Assembly: GCA_025454525.1 (NCBI GenBank)
Contig: JALOOG010000044.1
Location: 1 to 41,507, forward strand
Source: Anaerolineae bacterium
GTDB lineage: Bacteria; Chloroflexota; Anaerolineae; Aggregatilineales; Phototrophicaceae
Length of the DNA stretch: 41,507 bases
Direction of reading: 5' to 3'
Of the stretch, positions 3,978 through 41,507 are shown one piece after another (position 1 is the first letter of the stretch; every line of letters begins with the position of its first letter). A program made the translations under genes and the position numbers. The notes beneath the pieces are model-generated. The model was not told where the DNA came from and did not search any database. It worked only from the letters and a program-made list of their open reading frames with translations.

Positions 3978-4018
3978 CAGCATAACACGACGCGGTTTAT
4001 CATAAGGAGCATCCGATC

Positions 4019-4153
4019 ATGATGCAGTGGAATCACCTTGTTTTTGCGCGCTCTCTCTGGAAAACTTACAATCCACCTTACCACCTTGCCGCTGTCGCCG
4101 AAAAAATTTTTTCCCAGTCGCTACCACTGCTGCCGCCACACCCTGACGCTTAG
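4019..4153 (+). CDS. Small 44-aa ORF coupled to kptA
   Basis: ATG-ATG at 4019 is preceded by a consensus AAGGAG (4004-4009) with 9 bases spacing, the best ribosome site in this region. The frame runs 44 codons to a TAG at 4151-4153 that touches the ribosome site of kptA (AGAAAGGA, 4152-4159). The peptide (MMQWNHLVFARSLW..., Pro/Leu-rich end) has no recognised family and no clear membrane segment. It could be a leader peptide whose translation sets kptA expression, or a real small protein. The arrangement is seen; the role is inferred. Confidence 0.45.
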   Translation: MMQWNHLVFARSLWKTYNPPYHLAAVAEKIFSQSLPLLPPHPDA

Positions 4154-4166
4154 AAAGGATTTACCT

Positions 4167-4712
4167 ATGCCCGATTTAAAACGATTGTCTAAATTTCTGG
4201 CGTTGATGCTCCGACATGAGGCCGATCAATTTGGCCTCGTTTTAGATGAACACGGATTCACCGACCTAGAGCGCGTGTGGGCGCATGTAGAACAACGCTA
4301 TGGACGTACCTATCAACGGCAAGACCTCACCGACCTGTTAACGAGTGAGGCCGGCCGACAACGTTATCAGTTGCAAGGCGATCGCATCCGCGCCTTATAT
4401 GGCCATAGCCAAGTCACCCCGATCGAATATGAACGGGCGATCCCACCCGCGATCTTATATCACGGCACCACGCCACAAGCGGCCGAGTCGATCCGTCAAC
4501 AAGGACTCCGCGCCCAACAACGCCAATACGTGCATCTTTCCACTTCGATCGATCGTGCGATCGATGTAGCGGGACGGCATGGAAACCCCGTGTTATTGGT
4601 GATCCGCGCTTTAGAGGCACATCACGCGGGCATTGCCTTTTATCATCCCGAAGATCAACATTATCTGGTCGAGTCGCTCCCACCCGAATATATTGACTTT
4701 TCGCAGGTGTGA
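4167..4712 (+). CDS. kptA: RNA 2'-phosphotransferase (Tpt1/KptA family)
   Basis: This 181-aa enzyme is full length for the KptA/Tpt1 family, which moves an internal RNA 2'-phosphate to NAD+, giving ADP-ribose 1'',2''-cyclic phosphate. Family landmarks are LSKFLALMLRH (R16, H17) at the N-terminal winged-helix lobe, IRALYGHS (74-81), ILYHGTT (96-102), VHLST (122-126) and GRHGNPVLL (136-144), which cover the Arg-His-Arg-Arg catalytic set. I chose ATG 4167 because AGAAAGGA (4152-4159) lies 7 bases upstream and the family begins here; the longer open frame from 4038 adds an unrelated N-terminus. It follows a small ORF in the same transcript. Bacteria lack tRNA splicing, so its substrate is unclear. 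Confidence 0.93.
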   Translation: MPDLKRLSKFLALMLRHEADQFGLVLDEHGFTDLERVWAHVEQRYGRTYQRQDLTDLLTSEAGRQRYQLQGDRIRALYGHSQVTPIEYERAIPPAILYHGTTPQAAESIRQQGLRAQQRQYVHLSTSIDRAIDVAGRHGNPVLLVIRALEAHHAGIAFYHPEDQHYLVESLPPEYIDFSQV

Positions 4713-4794
4713 CTTGGTGTGCCTCTCATCTCACCCTACCCGATTCGTTAGTTGTGGATTCACGAAATTGGTTTAAGATGGATCTACAAGACAT

Positions 4795-6201
4795 TTGAGT
4801 GATAAAGGTCTGTCTGATATGGACAAGCGCATGGTGGATTTTATTCGCGCACTAAGAGCGGCAGGTGTGCGGATCTCGTTGGCCGAAAGTCAAGATGCGA
4901 TGTATGGCACACAGCTGATCGGACTTTCGCAAGAAGGCCATTTCCGCTCCACTTTAAAATCGACCTTGGTGAAAGAGAATCGCGATCATCACCTGTTTGA
5001 TTATTTTTACCCGTTGTTCTTTAGCTCTAACACCCCCCCGATGCAAAACATCCCGGACAACCTGACTCAAGAGGAGCAGCAACTGCTACAACAGGCGTTA
5101 CGCTCCCTCGCCGGCCAGATGCAAGCGCTTAAGCAATTGTTGGATCAACTGCTCAACGGCCGTCCCTTCTCGCAAGATCAATTGGATCAGATGGGACAAC
5201 AAGCCGGCTTAGATGGCATGGATGACATGCGTCAACGCCCGTGGATGGAGCGGCGGATGCAAACCTTAGCCGGATTGCGTCAATTACAGCAAATGTTGGA
5301 TCAGTTGATCGAACAGCTGAAAGAGATGGGCATGAGCGACGAAAAGGCGGCCGAATTGCGTCAAATGATGCAAGAGAATATGAATGCCTTATCCGATCAA
5401 ATCTCCAATTATGCCGGCCTGTCTATGGCGGAACGCATGGCCGAACAAGATCCCCAACCCCAACCGGATCTGATGGATGTGCCGTTACAACAATTGAGCC
5501 AAGAGGAGATCGATGATGTGCGTGCGGAAGTGCGTCGTTTAGCCGCCCGTTTACGGAGTCGTGCCTCATTACGTCAAAAACGTGCGAAAGACGGCACCCC
5601 CGATCCCCGTCGCACCATGCGCCATAACATGCGTTACTTAGGTGTGCCTTTAGAACTCAAACATCGGAAACGCCATGTTAAACCGGCCTTACTGTTGATC
5701 TGTGATCTTAGCACCTCGATGCGTCCGTATGTCGAATTTTTGTTGACGTTGGTCTATGAGTTGCAAGATGTGGTCAAAAGCACCCATAGCTTTATCTTCA
5801 TCAGCGATATGGTGGACATCAGCATGGCGTTTAAAGAAAATGACGCACAAACCGCGATTGCTCATGTGATGGTCGAAAATCCGCCCGGTTATTACAGCAC
5901 CGACTTAGGCAACAGCTTAAACACCTTTAAACGCGATCACATGGGCTTAATCACCGGTAAAACGACCGTGATCATCCTAGGGGATGGGCGTAACAATCAC
6001 AATGATCCACGGGTAGACATCGCCCAAGAGATGCAACGCAAAAGCCGTCGTTTGATCTGGTTTAACCCCGAATATCCCGGCACTTGGGGGACAGGGGATA
6101 GCGATATGTTGCAATATGCGGCCTGCTCACACGGAGTCTATCATGTGGCCACCTTGCGCGATCTCGCCAATGCGGTTGATCAAGTGCTGGTGGACGGCTA
6201 A
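4795..6201 (+). CDS. VWA (CoxE-like) domain protein
   Basis: This protein of 460-468 residues has an N-terminal helical region (VDFIRALRAAGVRISLAES, LFDYFYPLFF) typical of CoxE-like partners of MoxR AAA ATPases. A Gln/Met-rich coiled-coil stretch follows (roughly residues 80-240), then a von Willebrand A domain with the MIDAS motif DLSTS (D304) and later GDGRNN. Such proteins bind metal and help AAA ATPases remodel targets. The start is TTG 4795 or, perhaps better, ATG 4819, which has AAAGGT 9 bases upstream. No MoxR gene is next to it, which is unusual. GCGGGG/CCCCGC (6207-6212, 6232-6237) is a weak terminator candidate. Confidence 0.85.
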   Translation: MSDKGLSDMDKRMVDFIRALRAAGVRISLAESQDAMYGTQLIGLSQEGHFRSTLKSTLVKENRDHHLFDYFYPLFFSSNTPPMQNIPDNLTQEEQQLLQQALRSLAGQMQALKQLLDQLLNGRPFSQDQLDQMGQQAGLDGMDDMRQRPWMERRMQTLAGLRQLQQMLDQLIEQLKEMGMSDEKAAELRQMMQENMNALSDQISNYAGLSMAERMAEQDPQPQPDLMDVPLQQLSQEEIDDVRAEVRRLAARLRSRASLRQKRAKDGTPDPRRTMRHNMRYLGVPLELKHRKRHVKPALLLICDLSTSMRPYVEFLLTLVYELQDVVKSTHSFIFISDMVDISMAFKENDAQTAIAHVMVENPPGYYSTDLGNSLNTFKRDHMGLITGKTTVIILGDGRNNHNDPRVDIAQEMQRKSRRLIWFNPEYPGTWGTGDSDMLQYAACSHGVYHVATLRDLANAVDQVLVDG

Positions 6202-6274
6202 TCCAAGCGGGGATTGACGAAAAAGTTGAAACCCCGCGCAAGATGATCTACTCTTAAGAAAATATCGGGCCGGG

Positions 6275-6324
6275 GACTATAACCGATTTGTGACATGCGT
6301 AATGTGACTTTTTAGGTTATAGTC
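6275..6324 (+). promoter_or_regulatory. Inverted repeat upstream of the sugar ABC operon
   Basis: GACTATAACC (6275-6284) and GGTTATAGTC (6315-6324) are exact reverse complements 30 bases apart, ending 35 bases before the start of the binding-protein gene. Two TGTGAC words lie between. This could be a two-site operator for a LacI- or other-type regulator, or an mRNA hairpin. No regulator gene is adjacent. Confidence 0.45.
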
Positions 6325-6358
6325 ACCCTGTCGCTTTTCTTTTGAGGAGAGTAAAAAA

Positions 6359-7660
6359 ATGAAAATTAGACTGTTTTTCGTGTTCGCAGTGTTGATCGTG
6401 GCCTTTGGCCTGATCCAAGCCCAAGATACCCCCCCTGTGGAACTCCGCTTTACGTGGTATAACGACGGCAATGAAGGAGAAGCCCTCGAAAAACTGCTCA
6501 CCCAGTTTGAAGAAGCCAATCCCGGCATTGACGTGATCGTTGATACCGTCGCTTATGGTGATCTCCATACCACCTTGCAAACCCAAGTCGAGGCCGGCGA
6601 TCCCCCGGACTTGGCACGGATCACCGATGTCGCCCGCTTTGCCGGTAGCTACTTAGACCTGAGCGAATATTCCGCTAACGCCGAAGCCTATACCGAAAAC
6701 TTCCCCGCGCAAGTGTTAGCCTCGTTGCGCGCTGAAGGCGATGAAACCGGTATTTATGGTTTCCCCACCCAATTCACGATCACCGCGCCGTTCATCAATG
6801 TGACGCTGTTTGAACAAGCAGGCATTGAGATCCCCGACGGTTCAGAGACCACTTGGCCGGAATGGATCGCGTTAGCAACCGAAGTCGCCCAAGCGACCGA
6901 AACCCCCTACGCTGTGGCGATCGAACCGCGTGGGCATCGTTTCTGGGGCTTTTCGATCCCGTTCGGTGCGACCTATGTGAATGAGGACGGCTCATTTACC
7001 GTCGATACTGAGGGCTTCCGTGCTGCTGCCGGTGAGATCCAACGTTGGCATGAAGAAGGCATCACCCCGCCCGAAATTTGGGCGACCACCGATCTGCAAG
7101 TGGCCCGCGATGCGTTTATCAACGGTCAAGTCGTCCTGCTCTATTCCGGCAGCTTTGTCTTGCAACAATTCGACGCGGCGATCGGCGATACCTTTGATTG
7201 GCGCGTGATCCCCAACCCCCAACCTGAAGAAGGTGGAGTCCGGACGGGGATTCCGGGGGGCGCGGTGGCCGTGGCCTTTGCTGGTACGGAACATCCGGAA
7301 GAAGTCGCCATGTTGATGGACTTCCTCTCTAGCGCCGATGCCTTGCGTCAATTCTCGGCCGAAACCCTGTTTATCCCCGGTCACTTGGGCTTGATCGAAG
7401 AAGGCATTGAATATCCCAACCAAAACGACAATCTCAACACTTTGTTGGCTGAAATTCCGTTGATCTCGGATCAAGCGTATGCGTTGCAATACAGTCCGTA
7501 TACCTTTGTCTTGAATCCGGCAATCACCAGCCGCATGTCTCAGGTGATTGCGGGGGAATTGACCTTAGATGATGCGTTGATCGCGATCCAAGAAGAAATG
7601 GATACCAAGATCGCTGAAGCGCAAGCCGCGGCCATGGCCACGCCTACGCCCACACCCTAA
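6359..7660 (+). CDS. Sugar-type ABC transporter substrate-binding protein (family 1)
   Basis: The 433-aa exported protein has a Sec signal peptide (MKIRLFFVFAVLIVAFGLIQA, cut before QDTPP) but no lipobox Cys. Its body has features of family 1 solute-binding proteins: ELRFTWYNDGNEGEALEKLL, FEEANPGIDV, QVEAGDPPDLARI, and MLMDFLSS near the end. It ends with a Thr-Pro tail (ATPTPTP), common in Chloroflexota exported proteins. GAGGAGA (6344-6350) lies 8 bases before the ATG. It heads an operon with two permeases; a hairpin follows its stop. The substrate, probably a sugar or oligosaccharide, cannot be read from the sequence. Confidence 0.9.
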   Translation: MKIRLFFVFAVLIVAFGLIQAQDTPPVELRFTWYNDGNEGEALEKLLTQFEEANPGIDVIVDTVAYGDLHTTLQTQVEAGDPPDLARITDVARFAGSYLDLSEYSANAEAYTENFPAQVLASLRAEGDETGIYGFPTQFTITAPFINVTLFEQAGIEIPDGSETTWPEWIALATEVAQATETPYAVAIEPRGHRFWGFSIPFGATYVNEDGSFTVDTEGFRAAAGEIQRWHEEGITPPEIWATTDLQVARDAFINGQVVLLYSGSFVLQQFDAAIGDTFDWRVIPNPQPEEGGVRTGIPGGAVAVAFAGTEHPEEVAMLMDFLSSADALRQFSAETLFIPGHLGLIEEGIEYPNQNDNLNTLLAEIPLISDQAYALQYSPYTFVLNPAITSRMSQVIAGELTLDDALIAIQEEMDTKIAEAQAAAMATPTPTP

Positions 7661-7675
7661 TGTCCAACTGATTCC

Positions 7676-7700
7676 GCGAGTCGGGCCATGCCCGACTCGC
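7676..7700 (+). promoter_or_regulatory. Perfect 11-bp hairpin between binding protein and permease
   Basis: GCGAGTCGGGC (7676-7686) and GCCCGACTCGC (7690-7700) form a perfect stem with a 3-base CAT loop and no T run after it. It lies 15 bases behind the binding-protein stop. Such hairpins commonly stabilise the upstream mRNA or reduce read-through, so that binding protein exceeds permease. An ATG at 7688 lies in this hairpin and is unlikely to be used. Confidence 0.7.
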
Positions 7701-7717
7701 CCTGTTTGGAAAATCCC

Positions 7718-8722
7718 ATGCTCAGAAAATTACAAGCCCTTGCCCTTCAACTGATCGACCCTTTGCTCAGCCTCGCTGAACTGATCTTGATCCCGATCCA
7801 ACGGGTGATCGGTACGAATCGCATGGGTTACATTTTTGTGTTACCGAATTTGGTGATCTTTGGGGTCTTTATCCTGCTCCCCATGTTGCTTAACTTCTAT
7901 TTTGGCTTTACCCGTGGCGACTCGATCTTACCGGAAAATCGCGATTGGGTGGGTAATCAGAACCTCGCAACGCTCTTGACCTGTGAAGATTACCTCAACT
8001 ATCGCACTTGTGAAGAAGATTTATTCTGGCGCTCCGCGGGCAATACCGCTACTTACGTGGTGTTTGAGGTGATGGGTGTGGTGCTGTTTTCGTTGATCAC
8101 CGCCTTGTCACTCAACCAAAAAGTGCGCGGACGCGGGTTCTTTCGCGGTGTCTTTTTTTATCCGGTGCTGCTCTCTCCGGTGGTCGTGGCGCTGATCTGG
8201 AAATGGATCTTGCAGCATCAAAACGGCGTGATCAATTCGATTCTGGTGGCCTTGGGCGGGGAGAAGATCCCGTTTTTGGTTGATCCGAATTGGTCGTTTT
8301 TTTGGGTGGTGGTGATCGGGATCTGGGCGCAAATGGGTTTTTATACCTTGATCCTGTTAGCAGGCTTACAAGCGATCCCCAACGAATACTATGAGGCCGC
8401 GGCCATTGACGGGGCGAATCCTTGGGCAAAGTTTTGGTATCTCACCTTGCCGTTGTTGATGCCGACGATGACCGTCGTCTTAGTGCTATCGTTGATCCGC
8501 GCAGTGCAGGTGTTTGATACGGTGTTTGTGTTGACCGGAGGCGGCCCCGGCACCGCCACGCTCTATATCATCCAATACATCTATCAAAAAGCGTTTGACC
8601 TCCGTGAGTATGGCATGGCTGCCAGTGCTTCATTGGTGTTAGCCGTGGTCTTATTTGCGCTCACGATGATGCAATTGTTGGCCCGTCGCCGTGAAAATAC
8701 AGGACTAGAAACCCATGGATAA
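7718..8722 (+). CDS. Sugar ABC transporter permease, MalF/UgpA type
   Basis: This 334-aa inner-membrane permease has about six membrane segments after an N-terminal amphipathic region (MGYIFVLPNLVIFGVFILLPML onward) and the EAA loop EYYEAAAIDGANPWAKFWYLTLPLLMP that docks the ATPase. I chose ATG 7718, which has GGA 7 bases upstream; the ATG at 7688 lies inside a hairpin without a ribosome site. A loop containing two Cys (LLTCEDYLNYRTCEED) sits after the first membrane segment and could form a disulfide outside the membrane. It overlaps the next permease gene by 8 bases, so the two are translationally coupled. Confidence 0.92.
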   Translation: MLRKLQALALQLIDPLLSLAELILIPIQRVIGTNRMGYIFVLPNLVIFGVFILLPMLLNFYFGFTRGDSILPENRDWVGNQNLATLLTCEDYLNYRTCEEDLFWRSAGNTATYVVFEVMGVVLFSLITALSLNQKVRGRGFFRGVFFYPVLLSPVVVALIWKWILQHQNGVINSILVALGGEKIPFLVDPNWSFFWVVVIGIWAQMGFYTLILLAGLQAIPNEYYEAAAIDGANPWAKFWYLTLPLLMPTMTVVLVLSLIRAVQVFDTVFVLTGGGPGTATLYIIQYIYQKAFDLREYGMAASASLVLAVVLFALTMMQLLARRRENTGLETHG

Positions 8723-9803
8723 CGCACTTTCACGAGAACCGGTTACCCCGGCGCGGGGCATCTTGGCGTTTTTGACCCGCTTAAGAGGCGGTCAACGCTT
8801 CAGCTTTACCGATACGCTCACCTATGCTTACTTGATCCTTGGCACAATCGTGATGTTCGGGCCGGTGGTGTGGTTGGCGATGTCATCCTTTAAGACTCCC
8901 CAAGCGTTAGCGGAATTTCCACCGTCGTTTTTACCCCAACGTACCGAAACGATCGTTGTTGAAGGCCATGATCGCCCATTAGAGTTGTATACCGTGCGGT
9001 TTGAAAGCGGTCAAACGCGCCAATTGGCCCAAATTTCGCGAGTCGGGATCGTCGCCCGCATGGTCGATCCAGCTGTCCCTAACGAGGTGATCGAGGTCAA
9101 TATCAATCAGCGCACTCCGGTGCGAAGCGTGGTGTTCGGGTTTGAAAATTACACAGGCGCGATCGAACGCTTTCCGTTTTTGACCTATTTGCGTAACAGC
9201 GTGGTGGTAACAGTGATCTCCACGATCATCACCTTGTTGATCAACAGTATGGCCGCCTTTGGACTAAGCAAGTATCAATTCCGTGGGCGCAACCTGATCT
9301 TTTTTGTGATCTTAAGTACGTTGATGGTGCCCGTTTCGGTGATCTTGATTCCGGCGTTTTTGGTGATCGCGGAAGTCGGTTGGATCAACAGTTTATGGGG
9401 GATTATCATCCCCGGCGCAGCGACTCCGACGGGGGTGTTTTTGTTGCGACAATACATGCTCACCATTCCGGATGAATTGCTGGACTCGGCGCGGGTGGAT
9501 GGCGCAAGTGAATGGCGGATCTATTGGCAAGTGGTGTTACCCTTAGCCGGCCCCGCCTTGGCCGTGTTAGCGATCTTCTCGGTGATGTGGCGTTGGAATG
9601 ACTTTTTATGGCCGTTGATCGTCTTGAGCCGTTCGGAGTTGTTTACACTTCAGGTCGGCTTAAACGCCTTTCAGGGAGAATTAAACACCCAATGGAATTA
9701 TATTCTTGCGATGACGGTGCTGACTTTGTTACCGATCACGGTGGTCTTTGCGCTCTTACAACGTTATATCACCACGGGAATCGCGACCACTGGTATGAAG
9801 TAA
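8715..9803 (+). CDS. Sugar ABC transporter permease, MalG/UgpE type, with a large loop insertion
   Basis: The 362-aa permease starts inside the end of the previous gene (8-base overlap). It has the usual six-helix arrangement and the EAA loop ELLDSARVDGASEWRIYWQVVLPLAGP. Family members are usually about 270-300 residues; this one carries roughly 85 extra residues between the first and second membrane segments (from about 75 to 155, including the ETIVVEGHDRPLELY and RQLAQISRVGIV segments), which should face the outside. The insertion looks like a small beta domain. No ATPase gene follows, so a shared ATPase is likely. Confidence 0.92.
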   Translation: MDNALSREPVTPARGILAFLTRLRGGQRFSFTDTLTYAYLILGTIVMFGPVVWLAMSSFKTPQALAEFPPSFLPQRTETIVVEGHDRPLELYTVRFESGQTRQLAQISRVGIVARMVDPAVPNEVIEVNINQRTPVRSVVFGFENYTGAIERFPFLTYLRNSVVVTVISTIITLLINSMAAFGLSKYQFRGRNLIFFVILSTLMVPVSVILIPAFLVIAEVGWINSLWGIIIPGAATPTGVFLLRQYMLTIPDELLDSARVDGASEWRIYWQVVLPLAGPALAVLAIFSVMWRWNDFLWPLIVLSRSELFTLQVGLNAFQGELNTQWNYILAMTVLTLLPITVVFALLQRYITTGIATTGMK

Positions 9804-9822
9804 GCGTTTAAGGATCAACCCG

Positions 9823-10392
9823 ATGACTCCGATTCGTGTGGTTATGGGACTCTGTGGGCTGTGGGGCCTGCTCACAGGGTGTATCTCCTCTCCATTAGCA
9901 TCTACCCCGCAAGCACAGACCGCGGCCGCCAGTCTTCCGCTGCATTTTTACGCGATCCATACGGATCAGACACAAGGCACACCGATCGGATGTGATCAAG
10001 CAGCAGTGATGATCGATAGCGCCTTAGTGCAAACCGGACAATTGAGCGAAGACCTACGTTTGGCCTTGATTGCTTTGTTCACCACCCCGCTAGAGAACTT
10101 TCCCGATTATCGCAACGCATGGACGCATCGCGGGATCAGCTTAGACGGGGTGACGATCACGGGTGATCAAGCGGTGATCGCCTTGCGTTCCGATCAAGCC
10201 TTGCGCTTAGAGGGGGTGTGTTCGGATGCGGCCTTGCGCGCTCAACTCTTATTGACGGTGTTCCAATTTTCCCCCCTACAGAGTGCGCTGATCACCTATA
10301 ACGGAGAAAATCTTAAACAGCTCATGGATGCAAGCGGAATCATTAACGAAACTGACCGCTTCACCCGTGCTGATCTCGGTTATAATCAATGA
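9823..10392 (+). CDS. Lipoprotein, possibly GerMN-like
   Basis: The 189-aa product has a lipoprotein signal with lipobox LLTGC (Cys at about residue 20), then a Ser/Thr/Ala linker. The mature part includes ALIALFTTPLENFPD, GISLDGVTITGDQAVIALR and a final LLLTVFQFSP...ITYNGENLKQ pattern. That order of a helix, a beta strand pair and an 'NG' turn resembles GerMN-type domains. It starts 20 bases after the permease stop and so is likely cotranscribed. It could be an accessory envelope protein; its function is unknown. Confidence 0.75.
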   Translation: MTPIRVVMGLCGLWGLLTGCISSPLASTPQAQTAAASLPLHFYAIHTDQTQGTPIGCDQAAVMIDSALVQTGQLSEDLRLALIALFTTPLENFPDYRNAWTHRGISLDGVTITGDQAVIALRSDQALRLEGVCSDAALRAQLLLTVFQFSPLQSALITYNGENLKQLMDASGIINETDRFTRADLGYNQ

Positions 10393-10407
10393 TGTTGCAA
10401 TTTTGTA

Positions 10408-11583
10408 ATGTTATGGACGTGCAAGCGAATGTCAACTTCAGCGCGGCCCGGCCTCACGGCCTTGGCCATTGCCTTTAGTACCCCCGCCTTTTTAGGAGTC
10501 GCACCGATCTTCGGTAAATTGGCGATTCAAGCGGGCGCGGATTCTTTTTCAGTGGCTGCGCTCCGCACGATCCTAGCCGTGGCGATCTTATGGGCGATCT
10601 ACGGGTTATTTTTTCGTAAGGCGATCTTCATCTATCCGGCGGGTTTATTAGGTTGCGTGGTGATCGGTGTGATCAACGGGATCGGGTCGCTGTTTTACTA
10701 CGGTAGCCTAAGTTTATTAGACGCATCGTTAGCGCAACTGCTCAACGGGATGTACCTCGCGTTCGCGGTGATGCTCTCCACTTTTGCCGGACAACGGGCA
10801 GATCCACGCACGATCTTACGAGTCGGATTGGCCTTGTTAGCGTTGGTGTTCCTCGCAGGATTCGGCACAAAACCGATCGATTGGGTTGGTGTAGGCTTGA
10901 TGTTGGGCAGCGCGTTGATGTTTGCTGGCACGATGATCCTAAGTCAATATGTCCTCTACGAAATGCCGGCACGCACCGTAACGCTGTATGTTTTAACAAC
11001 GATGGGCGTAGTGGTGTCGATGGTCTGGTTAGCGGTTGGAAATCCGCTCTCCGGTGAGGTGTTGCAAGCGGGCGCGTTACCCGTGATCGCCTTAGGGGTG
11101 ACGACGGCGCTCTCACGGTTGGCGATGTTTGCGGGGGTCAAGATCCTCGGTGGGATGCAGACCGCGATCTTAGCGATTATGGAAATCGGAGTCGCGTTGA
11201 TCTTGGCCTTTATCGTGTTGGGAGAGCGTTTGACTCCGATGCAAGGGGTGGGAGTCGGCTTATTGCTGGTGTGTTTATTGTTGATCCGACAATCGGATCT
11301 GTTACCGCGGGGCTTCAACCCTAGCGCGTTGATCGTGGCGAATATGGCGGATGTGCAGTTTCAACGGATCGCATTTCATCGCGCCTTTGGGACTCGCGAG
11401 TTAGATAATGAGTTAGGCACGATGGGCGCGATCACCACCCAAGAGATCCTCGCGATCCAAAAGATGATGGGCGCGGAAAACGGCGGTGTTGATCCGTTCC
11501 CGATCGGTAAAACCAATCAACTCTTGACTCGACAATATGATGAACAGGACACTATTCCCTCCCCCGCGCCCAAAGAGAAATAA
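10408..11583 (+). CDS. EamA/DMT-family membrane transporter with a soluble tail
   Basis: About ten hydrophobic segments arranged as two EamA repeats are seen (TPAFLGVAPIFGKLAIQAG; GERLTPMQGVGVGLLLVCLL at the end of the second), typical of drug/metabolite transporters. After the last helix there is a hydrophilic tail of about 90 residues (from RQSDLLPRG onward), longer than normal. The start is uncertain: ATG 10408 or ATG 10429 (MSTSARPG); neither has a clear ribosome site, and translation may be coupled from the gene ending at 10392. A terminator overlaps its stop codon. The exported or imported metabolite is unknown. Confidence 0.85.
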   Translation: MLWTCKRMSTSARPGLTALAIAFSTPAFLGVAPIFGKLAIQAGADSFSVAALRTILAVAILWAIYGLFFRKAIFIYPAGLLGCVVIGVINGIGSLFYYGSLSLLDASLAQLLNGMYLAFAVMLSTFAGQRADPRTILRVGLALLALVFLAGFGTKPIDWVGVGLMLGSALMFAGTMILSQYVLYEMPARTVTLYVLTTMGVVVSMVWLAVGNPLSGEVLQAGALPVIALGVTTALSRLAMFAGVKILGGMQTAILAIMEIGVALILAFIVLGERLTPMQGVGVGLLLVCLLLIRQSDLLPRGFNPSALIVANMADVQFQRIAFHRAFGTRELDNELGTMGAITTQEILAIQKMMGAENGGVDPFPIGKTNQLLTRQYDEQDTIPSPAPKEK

Positions 11584-11601
11584 GCGCCTCTTTCTCTTTT
11601 T
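11572..11601 (+). terminator. Terminator of the sugar ABC operon
   Basis: AAAGAGAAA (11572-11580) pairs with TTTCTCTTT (11591-11599), followed by TT. The stop codon at 11581 lies in the loop. The stem is AT-rich, so strength is uncertain. Confidence 0.55.
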
Positions 11602-11603
11602 GG

Positions 11604-11634
11604 TTGATTTTGAGCGCGCCGGATATGCTAAAAT
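11604..11634 (+). promoter_or_regulatory. Extended -10 promoter of the restriction-modification gene
   Basis: TGCTAAAAT (11626-11634) is an extended -10 element. TTGATT at 11604-11609 may be the -35, with a long 19-base spacer. The expected start of transcription, near 11641, is 25 bases before the ATG. Confidence 0.5.
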
Positions 11635-11665
11635 ACCCCCTTGAGATAACGCGGGATAAAACACG

Positions 11666-14600
11666 ATGATCGAAACGGCCTTAACGACCTATCTAGGCGA
11701 TCTACAGGCGAAATATCAACATGAAGAAGCACGCGAACACACCTATCGCCCAGTGATCGAAAAGCTCCTACAGACATTGGGGGCTTTTCAGGTATTGAAT
11801 GACCCCGCCCAGATCAAAGGTGTCGGTAAACCGGACTTTATCCTCAAATCTGGTCACATGCAGATCGCTTTTGTGGAGACCAAAGACATCAACGTGAACC
11901 TTGATCGGGCGATCCGTGATTGGCAGATCAAAAAGTACCTGCGCGCCTTGCCCAACTTTTTGTTGACCAATTACCTTGAATTTCGCTGGTACTATCGCGG
12001 AGAACTCCAAGCGACCGCTTTGATCGGTGAGATCTACAAAGGCAAGATCAAACCGCAGCTTGATCTCGATCCCTTGGCCCGGCTATTGGAGCAATTCGCC
12101 GGACATCCGATCCCGACGATTGGATCGGCGCATGATCTCGCAAAAGACATGGCCGGTATGGCGCATAACATCCGCGAATTGATCATCTATTACCTGCCTA
12201 AGAGTCTCACCCTGCAAGACCAACGTGAAGCGTTTCGACAAACGTTGATCCCCAACTTAAGCGATGTTGAATTTGCCGATATGTACGCACAAACCTTAGC
12301 CTATGGTTTGTTTGCGGCCCGCTTGGAGTATCACGGCAAACCCGATGATTTTAATGTCGAAAAAGTCTTTTTTCAGATGCCCAAGACCAACCCCTTCTTG
12401 ACCGATTTCTTTCAGCGGATCGTACCTGAATTAGATGAGCGCGTGCGTTGGCAAGTCGATACCCTCGCCACGCTGTTAGCGTTTGCTGATACCGATCAGG
12501 TTCTCAGAGATTTTGGCCGCAAAACCCGTCAAGAAGACCCGATCATCCACTTTTACGAGACATTCCTCACTGCTTACGATCCTAGAATGCGCGAGGCACG
12601 CGGTGTGTATTACACCCCGGAACCCGTGGTGAGCTTTATCGTTCGGAGCATCGATCACCTGTTAAAAGCGCGTTTCGGCCGCCGTGATGGACTCGCCGAT
12701 CAAGACACCTTTATCCTTGATCCTGCCACTGGAACGGGGACATTTCTCTACTTTGTGATCCAACAGATCTATGAGCAGTTAGGGGCGGTGCGCGGGATCT
12801 GGGATCAATACGTCAATCAGCACTTGCTCAAGCGGGTGTTCGGGTTTGAGTTGTTGATGGCCCCGTATGCCGTGGCGCACATGAAACTCGGCTTACAATT
12901 GCGCGAAATGGGTTATCAATTTGCCACCCGCGAACGTTTAGGCGTGTATTTGACCAATTCACTTGAAGAACAGATCAAACAGCCTCCGTTGCCCATGGCC
13001 CGCTTTATCAGTGATGAGGCGAATCAAGCGGTGTCCGTCAAAACCGATCGCCCGATCATGGTGGTGTTAGGGAATCCGCCGTATTCCTATGATTCTCAAA
13101 ATACGGGGAATTGGATCACCCAACTTAACCAAGAATACTATTATGTAGACGGAAAACGGATCAAAGAACGTAATCCACGCGCCTTGAGAGATGATTATGT
13201 GAAATTCATCCGCTTTGGACAATGGCGCATCCAACAAACCGGTTATGGGATTCTGGCCTTGGTCACCAATCATACCTATCTAGATGCGCCCACCTTGCGC
13301 GGGATGCGTCAGCATTTGATGGATGAGTTTGATGAGATCTACGTGTTGGATCTGCATGGCAATTCCAAGAAAAAAGAGACGACCCCAAACGATAGCGCGG
13401 ATCAAAACGTGTTTGATATTCAGCAAGGAGTCGCGATCGGGATCTTTGTCAAACATCGGCGGCCAGACGGTACGCCTAAAACCGCCCGCGCCCGCGTGTA
13501 TCACGCTGATCTGTATGGGAAGCGCAAAGATAAATATGCGATGTTAAATGCTCATCAGGTGGAGACGATGATTCGTGAGGGGTTGTGGCAGGAGTTAAAA
13601 CCACAACCTCCGTTTTACCTGTTCCGTCCCCACAATTTAGACCGCGATACCGAATATCAAGCCGGATGGAAAATTACGGATATTTTTGGAACCCACGTTT
13701 ACGGTTTTAAAAGTCATCGCGATCACTTCGCTATTGGTTTTCAAAGAGAAACGATAAGAGAAAGAATCAACCTGTTGATGAGCGGCACTAAAAATAACTT
13801 AGATGTTGCACAGATTTATGACTTAGGGAAGTGGAATTGGCAAAAAGCAGGTGAAGCTTTATTAGAAGTGGATAATCTAGACTATTTTGTGGATAAATGT
13901 GCTTTTCGGCCTTTTGACAATCGTTTTATGTTCTATTCAGAACATATCATGGATAGAATTCGCCCTGAACTTAAACGCCATATGTTCAAAAGGGACAATT
14001 TGTGTTTGGTCGCTTCAAGACAGATTTCGACTCGGCATTACAAACACGTTTTTGTCGCGGATCTTGTCCCAAACGATTGTTTGGTGTCGAATATCACCAA
14101 AGAAGCGAATCATAGTTTTCCGCTGTATCTTTATCTTGATCCCAATGATGACAATATGTTCGAGAAGGTAAATGGGGAATGGGCATGGAGCGCGAAAGGC
14201 CGCCGTCCGAACTTGAGTCACCCGTTTGTGCGCGAGATCTGCGATCGGATCGGCGCATCGTTCGCTTATGATGAGGTGTTGCCAGCCGATCCGAACCTGA
14301 AAACCGTCACGCCTGAGGACATTTTCGCCTATGCTTACGCCGTGTTCCATGATCCGAATTATCGGAGTCACTACGCCGAATTTTTGAAGATCGATTTTCC
14401 TCACTTGCCGATGCCACACGATGCGGATCGCTTCTGGACGTTAGCGGGGTATGGAAGACGCTTGATTGACGCACATCTGTTACGGGCCGATCTGAAAAGT
14501 CCGGTGACATTCCCCGAACGTGGATCCGGCAAAGTCGAAAAGCGCTATCCGATCTATGAGGCGGGGACAGGTCGCGTCTGGATCAACCGTGAGCAGTATT

Positions 14601-14785
14601 TTAGCGATGTGCCGGAGTCGGCGTGGGAATTTCAGATCGGCGGGTATCAGGTGCTGGAGAAATGGCTAAAAGATCGGCGCGATCGGGTCTTAAGTCCGGA
14701 TGAAGTGCGAGGCTATCTCGCGATCGTGGCCGCGGTCACCGAGACGATCGCGATCATGGAGGCGATCGAAGCGTTGACCGAATAG
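11666..14785 (+). CDS. Single-chain restriction-modification enzyme (type IIG / type ISP-like)
   Basis: The 1039-aa protein combines nuclease, N6-adenine methyltransferase and specificity regions. The N-terminus has a PD-(D/E)xK site: PDF (D57), then E71-T-K73. A helical region follows, then methyltransferase motif X-like VYYTPEPVVSFIV (about 313), motif I DPATGTGTF (352-360) and catalytic motif IV NPPY (470-473). The C-terminal part resembles the type ISP specificity region (FRPFDNRFMFY). No helicase block is present, so it is shorter than true type ISP enzymes such as LlaBIII and fits a type IIG layout. A tract from about 13690 to 14170 is visibly AT-richer than its flanks. No separate modification or specificity gene is nearby. 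The recognition sequence cannot be read. Confidence 0.92.
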   Translation: MIETALTTYLGDLQAKYQHEEAREHTYRPVIEKLLQTLGAFQVLNDPAQIKGVGKPDFILKSGHMQIAFVETKDINVNLDRAIRDWQIKKYLRALPNFLLTNYLEFRWYYRGELQATALIGEIYKGKIKPQLDLDPLARLLEQFAGHPIPTIGSAHDLAKDMAGMAHNIRELIIYYLPKSLTLQDQREAFRQTLIPNLSDVEFADMYAQTLAYGLFAARLEYHGKPDDFNVEKVFFQMPKTNPFLTDFFQRIVPELDERVRWQVDTLATLLAFADTDQVLRDFGRKTRQEDPIIHFYETFLTAYDPRMREARGVYYTPEPVVSFIVRSIDHLLKARFGRRDGLADQDTFILDPATGTGTFLYFVIQQIYEQLGAVRGIWDQYVNQHLLKRVFGFELLMAPYAVAHMKLGLQLREMGYQFATRERLGVYLTNSLEEQIKQPPLPMARFISDEANQAVSVKTDRPIMVVLGNPPYSYDSQNTGNWITQLNQEYYYVDGKRIKERNPRALRDDYVKFIRFGQWRIQQTGYGILALVTNHTYLDAPTLRGMRQHLMDEFDEIYVLDLHGNSKKKETTPNDSADQNVFDIQQGVAIGIFVKHRRPDGTPKTARARVYHADLYGKRKDKYAMLNAHQVETMIREGLWQELKPQPPFYLFRPHNLDRDTEYQAGWKITDIFGTHVYGFKSHRDHFAIGFQRETIRERINLLMSGTKNNLDVAQIYDLGKWNWQKAGEALLEVDNLDYFVDKCAFRPFDNRFMFYSEHIMDRIRPELKRHMFKRDNLCLVASRQISTRHYKHVFVADLVPNDCLVSNITKEANHSFPLYLYLDPNDDNMFEKVNGEWAWSAKGRRPNLSHPFVREICDRIGASFAYDEVLPADPNLKTVTPEDIFAYAYAVFHDPNYRSHYAEFLKIDFPHLPMPHDADRFWTLAGYGRRLIDAHLLRADLKSPVTFPERGSGKVEKRYPIYEAGTGRVWINREQYFSDVPESAWEFQIGGYQVLEKWLKDRRDRVLSPDEVRGYLAIVAAVTETIAIMEAIEALTE

Positions 14786-39342: not shown

Positions 39343-39481
39343 TCCATTTGATGATGTGATGTCATAAAATGCGCCTCGCATCCCTGAATGATACTAAAAG
39401 ATTAGCACAGAGAGATGGAAAGCCGTGATAGAAAAACCGAATGGTGGCGATTAATTGAAGCAAAAAAGTAGGTACAAGAAA

Positions 39482-39585
39482 GTTTCTTGCCTACAACCCT
39501 AGCCCTCCCAATATATAGGGAACTGGCCCGCGTGGCATGGGTGGATCCGTCTCCATTGATGGAAGACTTGGCTGAGGTTGCTAAG
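39482..39585 (+). repeat. Dispersed repeat, copy B
   Basis: This is the plus-strand match of copy A at 3628-3737. In one frame it reads PIYRELARVAWVDPSP followed by LAEVAKK, close to RELTCVAWADPSP and FSEV in copy A. It lies in gene-free DNA beside a decayed toxin-antitoxin module, just as copy A lies beside decayed toxin DNA. Confidence 0.7.
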
Positions 39586-39813
39586 AAGACGCACCGCTGC
39601 AAAAATCGTCACTCTCACGTATAATTGAAGGGTAACAGGCGTTGAATAGCCCTGAAGCCTTCATTTTGGCCTTGGTAGAAATTGATCGCACATAGACACG
39701 TCTGATTACCGCGTAATGTGCGAAGCTATCCGTTTCGTGAACCCGACCCACTGGCATCTAATGTGAATTTCAACTTCAAAGAAATGCTTAAACATGCCTG
39801 AGGAGTCAAGCTA

Positions 39814-40056
39814 ATGGCAACGATAGCGAACATGACCTTAGAAGAACTTCAGCAGTTGATCGATGCGCGCATTGATGAGCGTCTTACCCATCCGTTGGGC
39901 AAATTTGAGTTGGATCAAGAAGAACTTTTCGTTGATGACGAACCTGATACCCGTAGCTGGGAACAGGTGAAACAAGAAATTGAGCTTGACCGTTGGACAC
40001 CACCCGCCGGGCGCGAAGTCGTCATTGGAACCCTTACGCGAGGATCGAGAAAGTTA
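39814..40056 (+). pseudogene. VapB-like antitoxin gene with a frameshift
   Basis: GAGGAG precedes the ATG. The product starts MATIANMTLEELQQLIDARI and continues through SWEQVKQEIELDRWTPPAG, a layout common to small antitoxins paired with VapC PIN toxins. At GGG 40009-40011 the frame slips: with one G less, the sequence continues AKSSLEPLREDRES and stops at 40056, directly before the VapC ATG, exactly as intact modules do. As given, it instead runs in frame into the toxin. Confidence 0.75.
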
Positions 40057-40215
40057 ATGGCGATTTATATTGTTGATGCAAGTGTTGTCATTGAGTACCT
40101 GGTCACTGGGACATATATCTCAAATGCACAGGCACTATTCGACCAAGCAACATCCAACGACCGCTTTATCGTGCCGGAATTTTGCCTACTGGAATGCACC
40201 AACGTTCTATCATAA
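40057..40215 (+). pseudogene. Truncated VapC-type PIN-domain toxin
   Basis: From ATG 40057 the product reads MAIYIVDASVVIEYLV, then FIVPEFCLLECTNVL, the first half of a PIN-domain ribonuclease with the first catalytic Asp (VDAS) and the conserved Glu (ECTN). It stops at 40215 after 52 residues, where about 130 are normal, so the later acidic residues and the active site are lost. The next gene begins 31 bases on, so the remainder was deleted. Confidence 0.8.
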
Positions 40216-40246: not shown

Positions 40247-41507
40247 ATGTCTCACCGCAAAAAACTGATCGAAGTGGCGCTTCCCCTTGAAGCGATCAAC
40301 CTTGCCAGCGCCCGCGAAAAATCTATTCGGCATGGACACCCGTCCACCCTGCATCTATGGTGGGCGCGCCGTCCATTGGCCGCCGCACGGGCCGTGATTT
40401 TTGCATCCTTAGTTGATGACCCAGATAGCCCAGACGCACTACCCGCCTTTGTGGAAGCCTGTCAGCAACTTCCCATTGGCACGAATGTGAAGGCAAACGG
40501 GGACACCCCGCGGATGCGCCTCTTCGACTTTATCGAACGCTTGGTGACTTGGGAAGCGACCACCGACGAAGCGATCCTGAATACCGCCCGTGAATTGATC
40601 CAGATCGCCACAGAAGGCAACCCACCGCCATTGCTTGATCCCTTTGCCGGAGGCGGCAGCATTCCCCTAGAAGCACAACGACTCGGATTAGAGGCCCACG
40701 CCAGTGACCTGAACCCGGTTGCCGTCATGATCAACAAGGCGCAGATCGAAATCCCGCCGCGGTTTGCCAATCGACCGCCTGTGAACCCACGCGATCGTAA
40801 AACGGGTGATCATCAAACCGGAACCGGAGGAACGGCCCAATGGAAAGGCGCAACCGGACTCGCGGCCGATGTGCGTTACTATGGCGAATGGATGCGCGAA
40901 AAGGCTTGGGAGCGCATCGGGCATCTTTACCCGACCCACAATGGAGAAACGGTGATCGCATGGCTTTGGGCGCGCACGGTGAAATGCCCTAACCCTGCTT
41001 GCCAAGACCATATGCCACTTGTCACCTCATTTGCACTGTCCAAAAAGAAGGGTAAACAGGTTTGGGTAGAACCTATTGTGCAAGCGGGACGAGTGAGCTT
41101 TGAGGTGCGGCGTGAACAAGACGGTGACAATCCAAACATCATTCAAGCGCCGCCCAAATTAGGACGTGGGGCAAAATTTAAATGTCTTGCCTGTCAAGAG
41201 CCTTCCTCTGAACAACATCTCAAAGCGGAAGGTGTAGCGGGGCGCATGGGGGCAAAACTACTGGCAATTGTCACCGAAGGTGTAAACGGGCGTAGTTACT
41301 ATAGCCCTGATGATTATTATGTTCAAATTGCGCGTTCTGCTGAACCCATGTGGAAGCCTATGGGACGTATTTCCAATGACCGACGTTCCATGTTTACGCC
41401 TCTCTACGGCTTAACTGAATTCAGGCATCTTTTCACCCCGCGTCAACTGGTCGCATTAACCACTTTTAGCGATCTGGTCAATGAAGCGCGTGAACAAGCG
41501 TATCAGG
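40247..41507 (+). CDS. DUF1156-type DNA methylase, N-terminal part (3' partial)
   Basis: The frame is open from ATG 40247 to the window end (420 residues seen). It starts with KKLIEVALPLEAINLASARE, KSIRHGHPSTLHLWWARRPL, the N-terminal signature of DUF1156 proteins. Then come methyltransferase motif I LLDPFAGGGSIPLEA (D131) and SDLNPVAVMINK, and two Cys pairs (C247/C252 and C313/C316) that should bind zinc. The catalytic motif IV is expected downstream, outside the window. Known relatives are DNA methylases in defence clusters with DUF499 and helicase genes. It starts 31 bases after a decayed vapC. The ribosome site (AGGG) is weak. Confidence 0.88.
   Translation, partial: MSHRKKLIEVALPLEAINLASAREKSIRHGHPSTLHLWWARRPLAAARAVIFASLVDDPDSPDALPAFVEACQQLPIGTNVKANGDTPRMRLFDFIERLVTWEATTDEAILNTARELIQIATEGNPPPLLDPFAGGGSIPLEAQRLGLEAHASDLNPVAVMINKAQIEIPPRFANRPPVNPRDRKTGDHQTGTGGTAQWKGATGLAADVRYYGEWMREKAWERIGHLYPTHNGETVIAWLWARTVKCPNPACQDHMPLVTSFALSKKKGKQVWVEPIVQAGRVSFEVRREQDGDNPNIIQAPPKLGRGAKFKCLACQEPSSEQHLKAEGVAGRMGAKLLAIVTEGVNGRSYYSPDDYYVQIARSAEPMWKPMGRISNDRRSMFTPLYGLTEFRHLFTPRQLVALTTFSDLVNEAREQAYQ

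Follow-up and report, generated by a model that had tools for sequence, protein, structure and literature searches.

An Hma (Type-1 BREX-related) defence system that has probably come apart into two loci in an Anaerolineae genome, with HmaA proposed to act in trans

The survey was done on a window of 41507 bp, which is the complete contig C59 of an Anaerolineae bacterium, and on the remaining contigs of the same genome. Hma is a three-gene operon in PADLOC, composed of the helicase HmaA, the methylase HmaB and the ATPase HmaC (PMC8565338), and it equals the Type-1 DUF499-centred BREX-related (BR) system (PMC12839542). Here this restriction-modification-like system has probably come apart into two loci, with HmaA supplied in trans from a separate contig. 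The reading is based on gene content, the decay pattern, a rate difference between two copies of hmaA and intact motifs, all of which are shown here. We also propose, more tentatively, that this is a naturally split Hma, in which duplication and reciprocal loss have uncoupled the helicase-nuclease from the methylase-ATPase pair, so that one working defence would act in trans with its restriction and protection halves under separate control.

The first part of hmaB (420 codons) is located at 40247-41507 on the plus strand and its reading frame is open through the last base of the window. It matches Pfam DUF1156 (9.8e-26) and the PADLOC HmaB model (9e-153, model positions 7-447 of 967), and carries the adenine-methylase motif I DPFAGGG; no second DUF1156 gene was detected in the genome. 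A preliminary description of the window had recognized a DUF1156 methylase running off its end, of a family accompanied by DUF499 ATPases and helicases, and both statements are borne out by the Hma model matches reported here. Since the window is the whole contig, the cut in hmaB is a real contig end. Searching of the genome with the HmaB profile gave one further piece, consisting of the last 257 codons (model positions 719-961), at the end of contig C171 (G000:C171 8862-8089, minus strand), and these two matched portions give the DUF1156 and N6-adenine methylase composition of an HmaB. The two pieces stop and start exactly at two contig ends, their orientations match and no other copy is present in the genome; for this reason C59 and C171 were taken as neighbours. 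Between them about 270 codons (~0.8 kb) of hmaB are unassembled, and because the DPPY catalytic motif falls within this middle portion, an intact methylase is predicted rather than proven. The genome was searched for the missing middle and for overlapping contig ends and none was found, and the ends of C59 and C171 gave no match to any other contig above chance-length stretches.

In many genomes hmaB is interrupted by the end of a contig. The possibility that assemblies break there owing to a strain-variable target-recognition region was evaluated on 80 HmaC loci from other genomes with correction for length, and it found no support (0.121 ends per kb in mid-hmaB versus 0.090 downstream of hmaC; p = 0.17 for mid-hmaB versus all other regions). 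Conservation along HmaB showed only moderately variable stretches.

The order of genes on C171 is the 3′ end of hmaB, a 59-codon HepT remnant, an intact hmaC and then ordinary genes, namely SCO1, TetR, a glycosyltransferase and a DUF4013 membrane protein by Pfam. The encoded HmaC (1099 aa; PADLOC HmaC 1042 bits) has a Swt1-like HEPN domain at its N-terminus (HEPN_Swt1, 1.5e-28) fused to a DUF499 AAA+ ATPase (1.4e-33), which is a frequent form of HmaC; the motifs RNDWAH, GGGKTH and LLIIDE are readable and the closest relatives are from Anaerolineae (Chloroflexota) genomes. The 59-codon frame aligns with the final 41 positions of HepT-like RNases (2.5e-7). Its RxxxxH region is RFHDKRVH, versus RFRDKLVH in the complete HepT that genome G054 carries at this junction, and the change suggests the tail of a dead toxin. 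The preliminary description had supposed that the most interesting part may lie beyond the window, and had proposed annotating the downstream DNA for DUF499, DUF3780, helicase and nuclease genes. The DUF499 gene is indeed the next intact gene, so the downstream side is not restricted to housekeeping functions, but the helicase is found on C8 instead of C171 and much of the interest lies in the stretch upstream of hmaB.

The sole HmaA of the genome is intact on C8 (PADLOC 1629 bits, model positions 1-1172 of 1176). It is an Snf2 helicase with a C-terminal PD-(D/E)XK nuclease, and the motifs GAGKT, DEAH, QRFGR and the nuclease ExK are readable. The gene is solitary there and has an upstream region of its own; downstream of it come a broken vapB and, beyond that, an unrelated gene. 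No intact hmaA was found in the 40 kb upstream of hmaB in the window, and the hmaB-hmaC locus has a mere remnant of it, hence the three genes do not form one operon here. Among the 80 HmaC loci, 43 were informative (complete hmaB start and enough upstream reach), and in every one of these hmaA precedes hmaB on the same strand; the set was drawn from HmaC-bearing loci, which favours linked systems.

Genomes G285 and G245 were considered as parallel split systems, having hmaB copies without upstream hmaA, but they are not clear parallels: no hmaA remnant was found at these copies, no HmaC was detected in either genome, and the G245 copies have 137 bp in common. This stretch lies on two contigs (L040 14390-14526 and L041 8295-8431), is 99% identical between them and begins immediately ahead of the hmaB start codon, with unrelated DNA upstream; the contigs carry either separate copies of hmaB or variants from two strains, in different contexts. 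In G021 (L033 2302-4299), hmaA stops at ~660 codons and is directly followed by a HicBA-like pair and hmaB, which gives another shortened helicase without the nuclease part.

The upstream side of hmaB in the window is a scar of the former operon, with all features on the plus strand. Alignment to the C8 hmaA places one piece of an hmaA remnant at 39412-39465 and its 3′ end, covering part of the PD-(D/E)XK nuclease region with frameshifts and stops in every frame, at 39585-39814. A 119-bp dispersed repeat (39466-39584; 43 genome matches, itself included) interrupts the two pieces, and its flanks at 39465 and 39585 match positions 13248 and 13250 of the C8 locus (L009), one base apart. A vapB-like antitoxin follows at 39814-40056; it is a paralogue of the broken vapB of C8, its frame is shifted near the end and the open reading frame continues into a vapC-like toxin remnant of 52 codons (40057-40215), with a stop codon just upstream of the hmaB start. 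The Pfam scan of this PIN/VapC-like fragment matched no model; the toxin-antitoxin name of the pair was given by eye, for the toxin from its IVDAS..E motif and from an overlap with the antitoxin of the typical kind. Across 39412-40002 the window is 82.5% identical in DNA to the 3′ end of hmaA and vapB on C8, the next best being G006 with 69%. The truncated toxin and the dispersed repeat, both already noticed in the preliminary description, are on these alignments assigned to the decayed hmaA-hmaB junction. The methylase gene was described there as inserted behind the toxin; the toxin remnant is instead cargo of the ancestral junction, which the wrecked 3′ end of hmaA still adjoins. The full and partial copies of the ~120-bp repeat show 71-91% identity among themselves with a short hairpin at the start, and they probably form a family of small mobile or palindromic elements.

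The two loci have the look of an operon that was duplicated and then underwent reciprocal decay. Depending on which of five outgroups was used, 16-22 changes were unique to the remnant versus 3-7 unique to the C8 hmaA (binomial p 0.0009-0.09), a modest contrast given that the remnant is ~280 bp and that the difference is not significant with one of the outgroups. The changes of the remnant hit all codon positions, and frame-breaking indels occur in the remnant and not in the C8 copy. As the C8 copy is little changed while the remnant decayed, the lone helicase seems to have been kept under selection after the death of its twin.

The presence of vapB at both loci points to a duplicated operon, or to one operon acquired twice, followed by reciprocal loss. 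Separate acquisition of two related Hma operons, each of which then decayed, is possible though rather unlikely, and it would leave the same split state as seen today; the identity of 82.5% permits an origin outside the lineage, and the operon may be mobile, as hmaABC occurs also on a viral-collection contig. The same vapB in the hmaA-hmaB junction of both copies speaks for duplication instead, because the compared relatives of the same family and order have other cargo there (HicBA-like, MntA-HepT, kinase, PIN, ATPase pairs and others, most of them named by reading of the sequences). The viral-collection contig (L198; IMGVR_UViG_2891483275_000003, 50 kb) has the complete hmaA-hmaB-hmaC at 3986-14080 and could be a case of prophage-borne Hma. 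In loci L029-L062 of relatives both Hma junctions, hmaA-hmaB and hmaB-hmaC, often hold exchangeable cargo such as toxin-antitoxin-like pairs, ATPase/nuclease-like pairs, DUF262-like genes and kinase genes (named by eye), and nuclease and RNase cargo in such loci is described in PMC12839542.

It is most likely that the three proteins still cooperate from the two loci. We infer this from the fact that both halves, nuclease and protective, have persisted at their separate locations whereas all spare copies have decayed. HmaA or the methylase may, on the other hand, have been retained for a function of its own. The alternative is that the parts no longer cooperate, so that the C8 HmaA would work by itself as a helicase-nuclease that nicks DNA, and hmaB with hmaC would be a residual pair for modification and sensing, retained by chance or because methylation protects against the nuclease. 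We consider this unlikely. It agrees with the single-gene arrangement of hmaA on C8, with the listing of Hma among nickase-based systems (PMC11890865) and with a Halomonas HmaA that defends via its fused nuclease domain, as stated in the title of reference 112 in PMC12839542. All three proteins, however, retain those motifs that could be read, and their branches are about as long as in G007, where the operon is intact, with none lengthened. An unneeded hmaC of 1099 codons would also be expected to break, which is what happened to the two toxins and to the second hmaA.

A binning or assembly artefact, where C8 comes from a related organism in the sample and the organism of the window has only a decayed Hma locus lacking the helicase, is still more doubtful. 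The assembly (5.24 Mb, 230 contigs, 2.46% estimated contamination) is fragmented in the manner of a metagenome, C8 is just 25 kb and no contig joins the two loci. Against this, C8, C59 and C171 have one tetranucleotide signature in common, with a C8-C59 distance of 0.04-0.06 that is like the genome's own contigs, while relatives are at 0.38 or more. Composition therefore gives no support to bin contamination as the source of the split, a weak limit because the bin was probably built from this same signature. Moreover, the remnant on C59 and the copy on C8 are each other's closest relatives and carry the same vapB cargo, absent from the compared relatives. That hmaB marks the border of a large defence island, the reading of the preliminary description, is very improbable: a type IIG restriction-modification gene is present on the same contig, but it is 25 kb off and separated by genes for transport, signalling and metal uptake, and the locus itself consists of hmaB and hmaC only, with FTR1 and imelysin genes before it and ordinary genes resuming right after hmaC on C171. 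Apart from the Hma locus, the type IIG restriction enzyme-methyltransferase (11666-14785, plus strand; 1039 aa; PADLOC 846 bits) was the one clear defence gene in a scan of ten genes of the window.

With cooperation in trans as the preferred reading, the following course of events may be proposed. The ancestral operon would have had the order hmaA, vapBC, hmaB, hepT cargo, hmaC, and the duplication would have taken in either the entire operon or everything from the 3′ end of hmaA onwards. Locus 1 (C59 and C171) would then have retained hmaB and hmaC with loss of hmaA and both toxins, and locus 2 (C8) would have retained hmaA with loss of the remainder. As judged from the family (PMC12839542; nicking from PMC11890865), HmaB may methylate adenines of the host DNA, the AAA+ DUF499 ATPase HmaC may assemble on DNA and recognize the invader, and HmaA, acting in trans from C8, may translocate along unmodified DNA and nick or cut it through its nuclease. 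The HEPN RNase domain of HmaC could serve as a last-resort effector.

The case bears on the division of labour among helicase-nuclease, methylase and ATPase in Hma-type systems. In this genome the effector has been separated and the second copies and both toxin cargoes have been wrecked with all three core genes kept, which suggests that these three are the essential parts, and the split arrangement suggests that linkage of the Hma genes is not essential. The genome thus offers a testable case where the harmful and protective halves of a restriction-type system are encoded apart.

Among known systems, the Type-2 BR system has likewise a DUF1156 methylase and a DUF499 ATPase, but the helicase here has the C-terminal nuclease of Type-1. 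DUF3780, which marks the Type-2 relatives and not Type-1 (PMC12839542) and which the preliminary description had proposed to look for downstream, was undetected in the genome and among the Pfam-scanned genes of C171, in a weakly controlled search whose profile was silent in the control genomes too. With Hma as defined in PADLOC (PMC8565338) the present system shares strong model matches for all three proteins, and it differs in that hmaA is on another contig with a dead 3′ piece left at the hmaB-hmaC locus. With the Type-1 BR system (PMC12839542) it shares the HEPN-DUF499 fusion, the DUF1156 methylase, the Snf2 helicase with C-terminal PD-(D/E)XK nuclease and the nuclease/RNase cargo in the locus, whereas here the genes are distributed over two loci and the RNase cargo (VapC, HepT) is present just as remnants.
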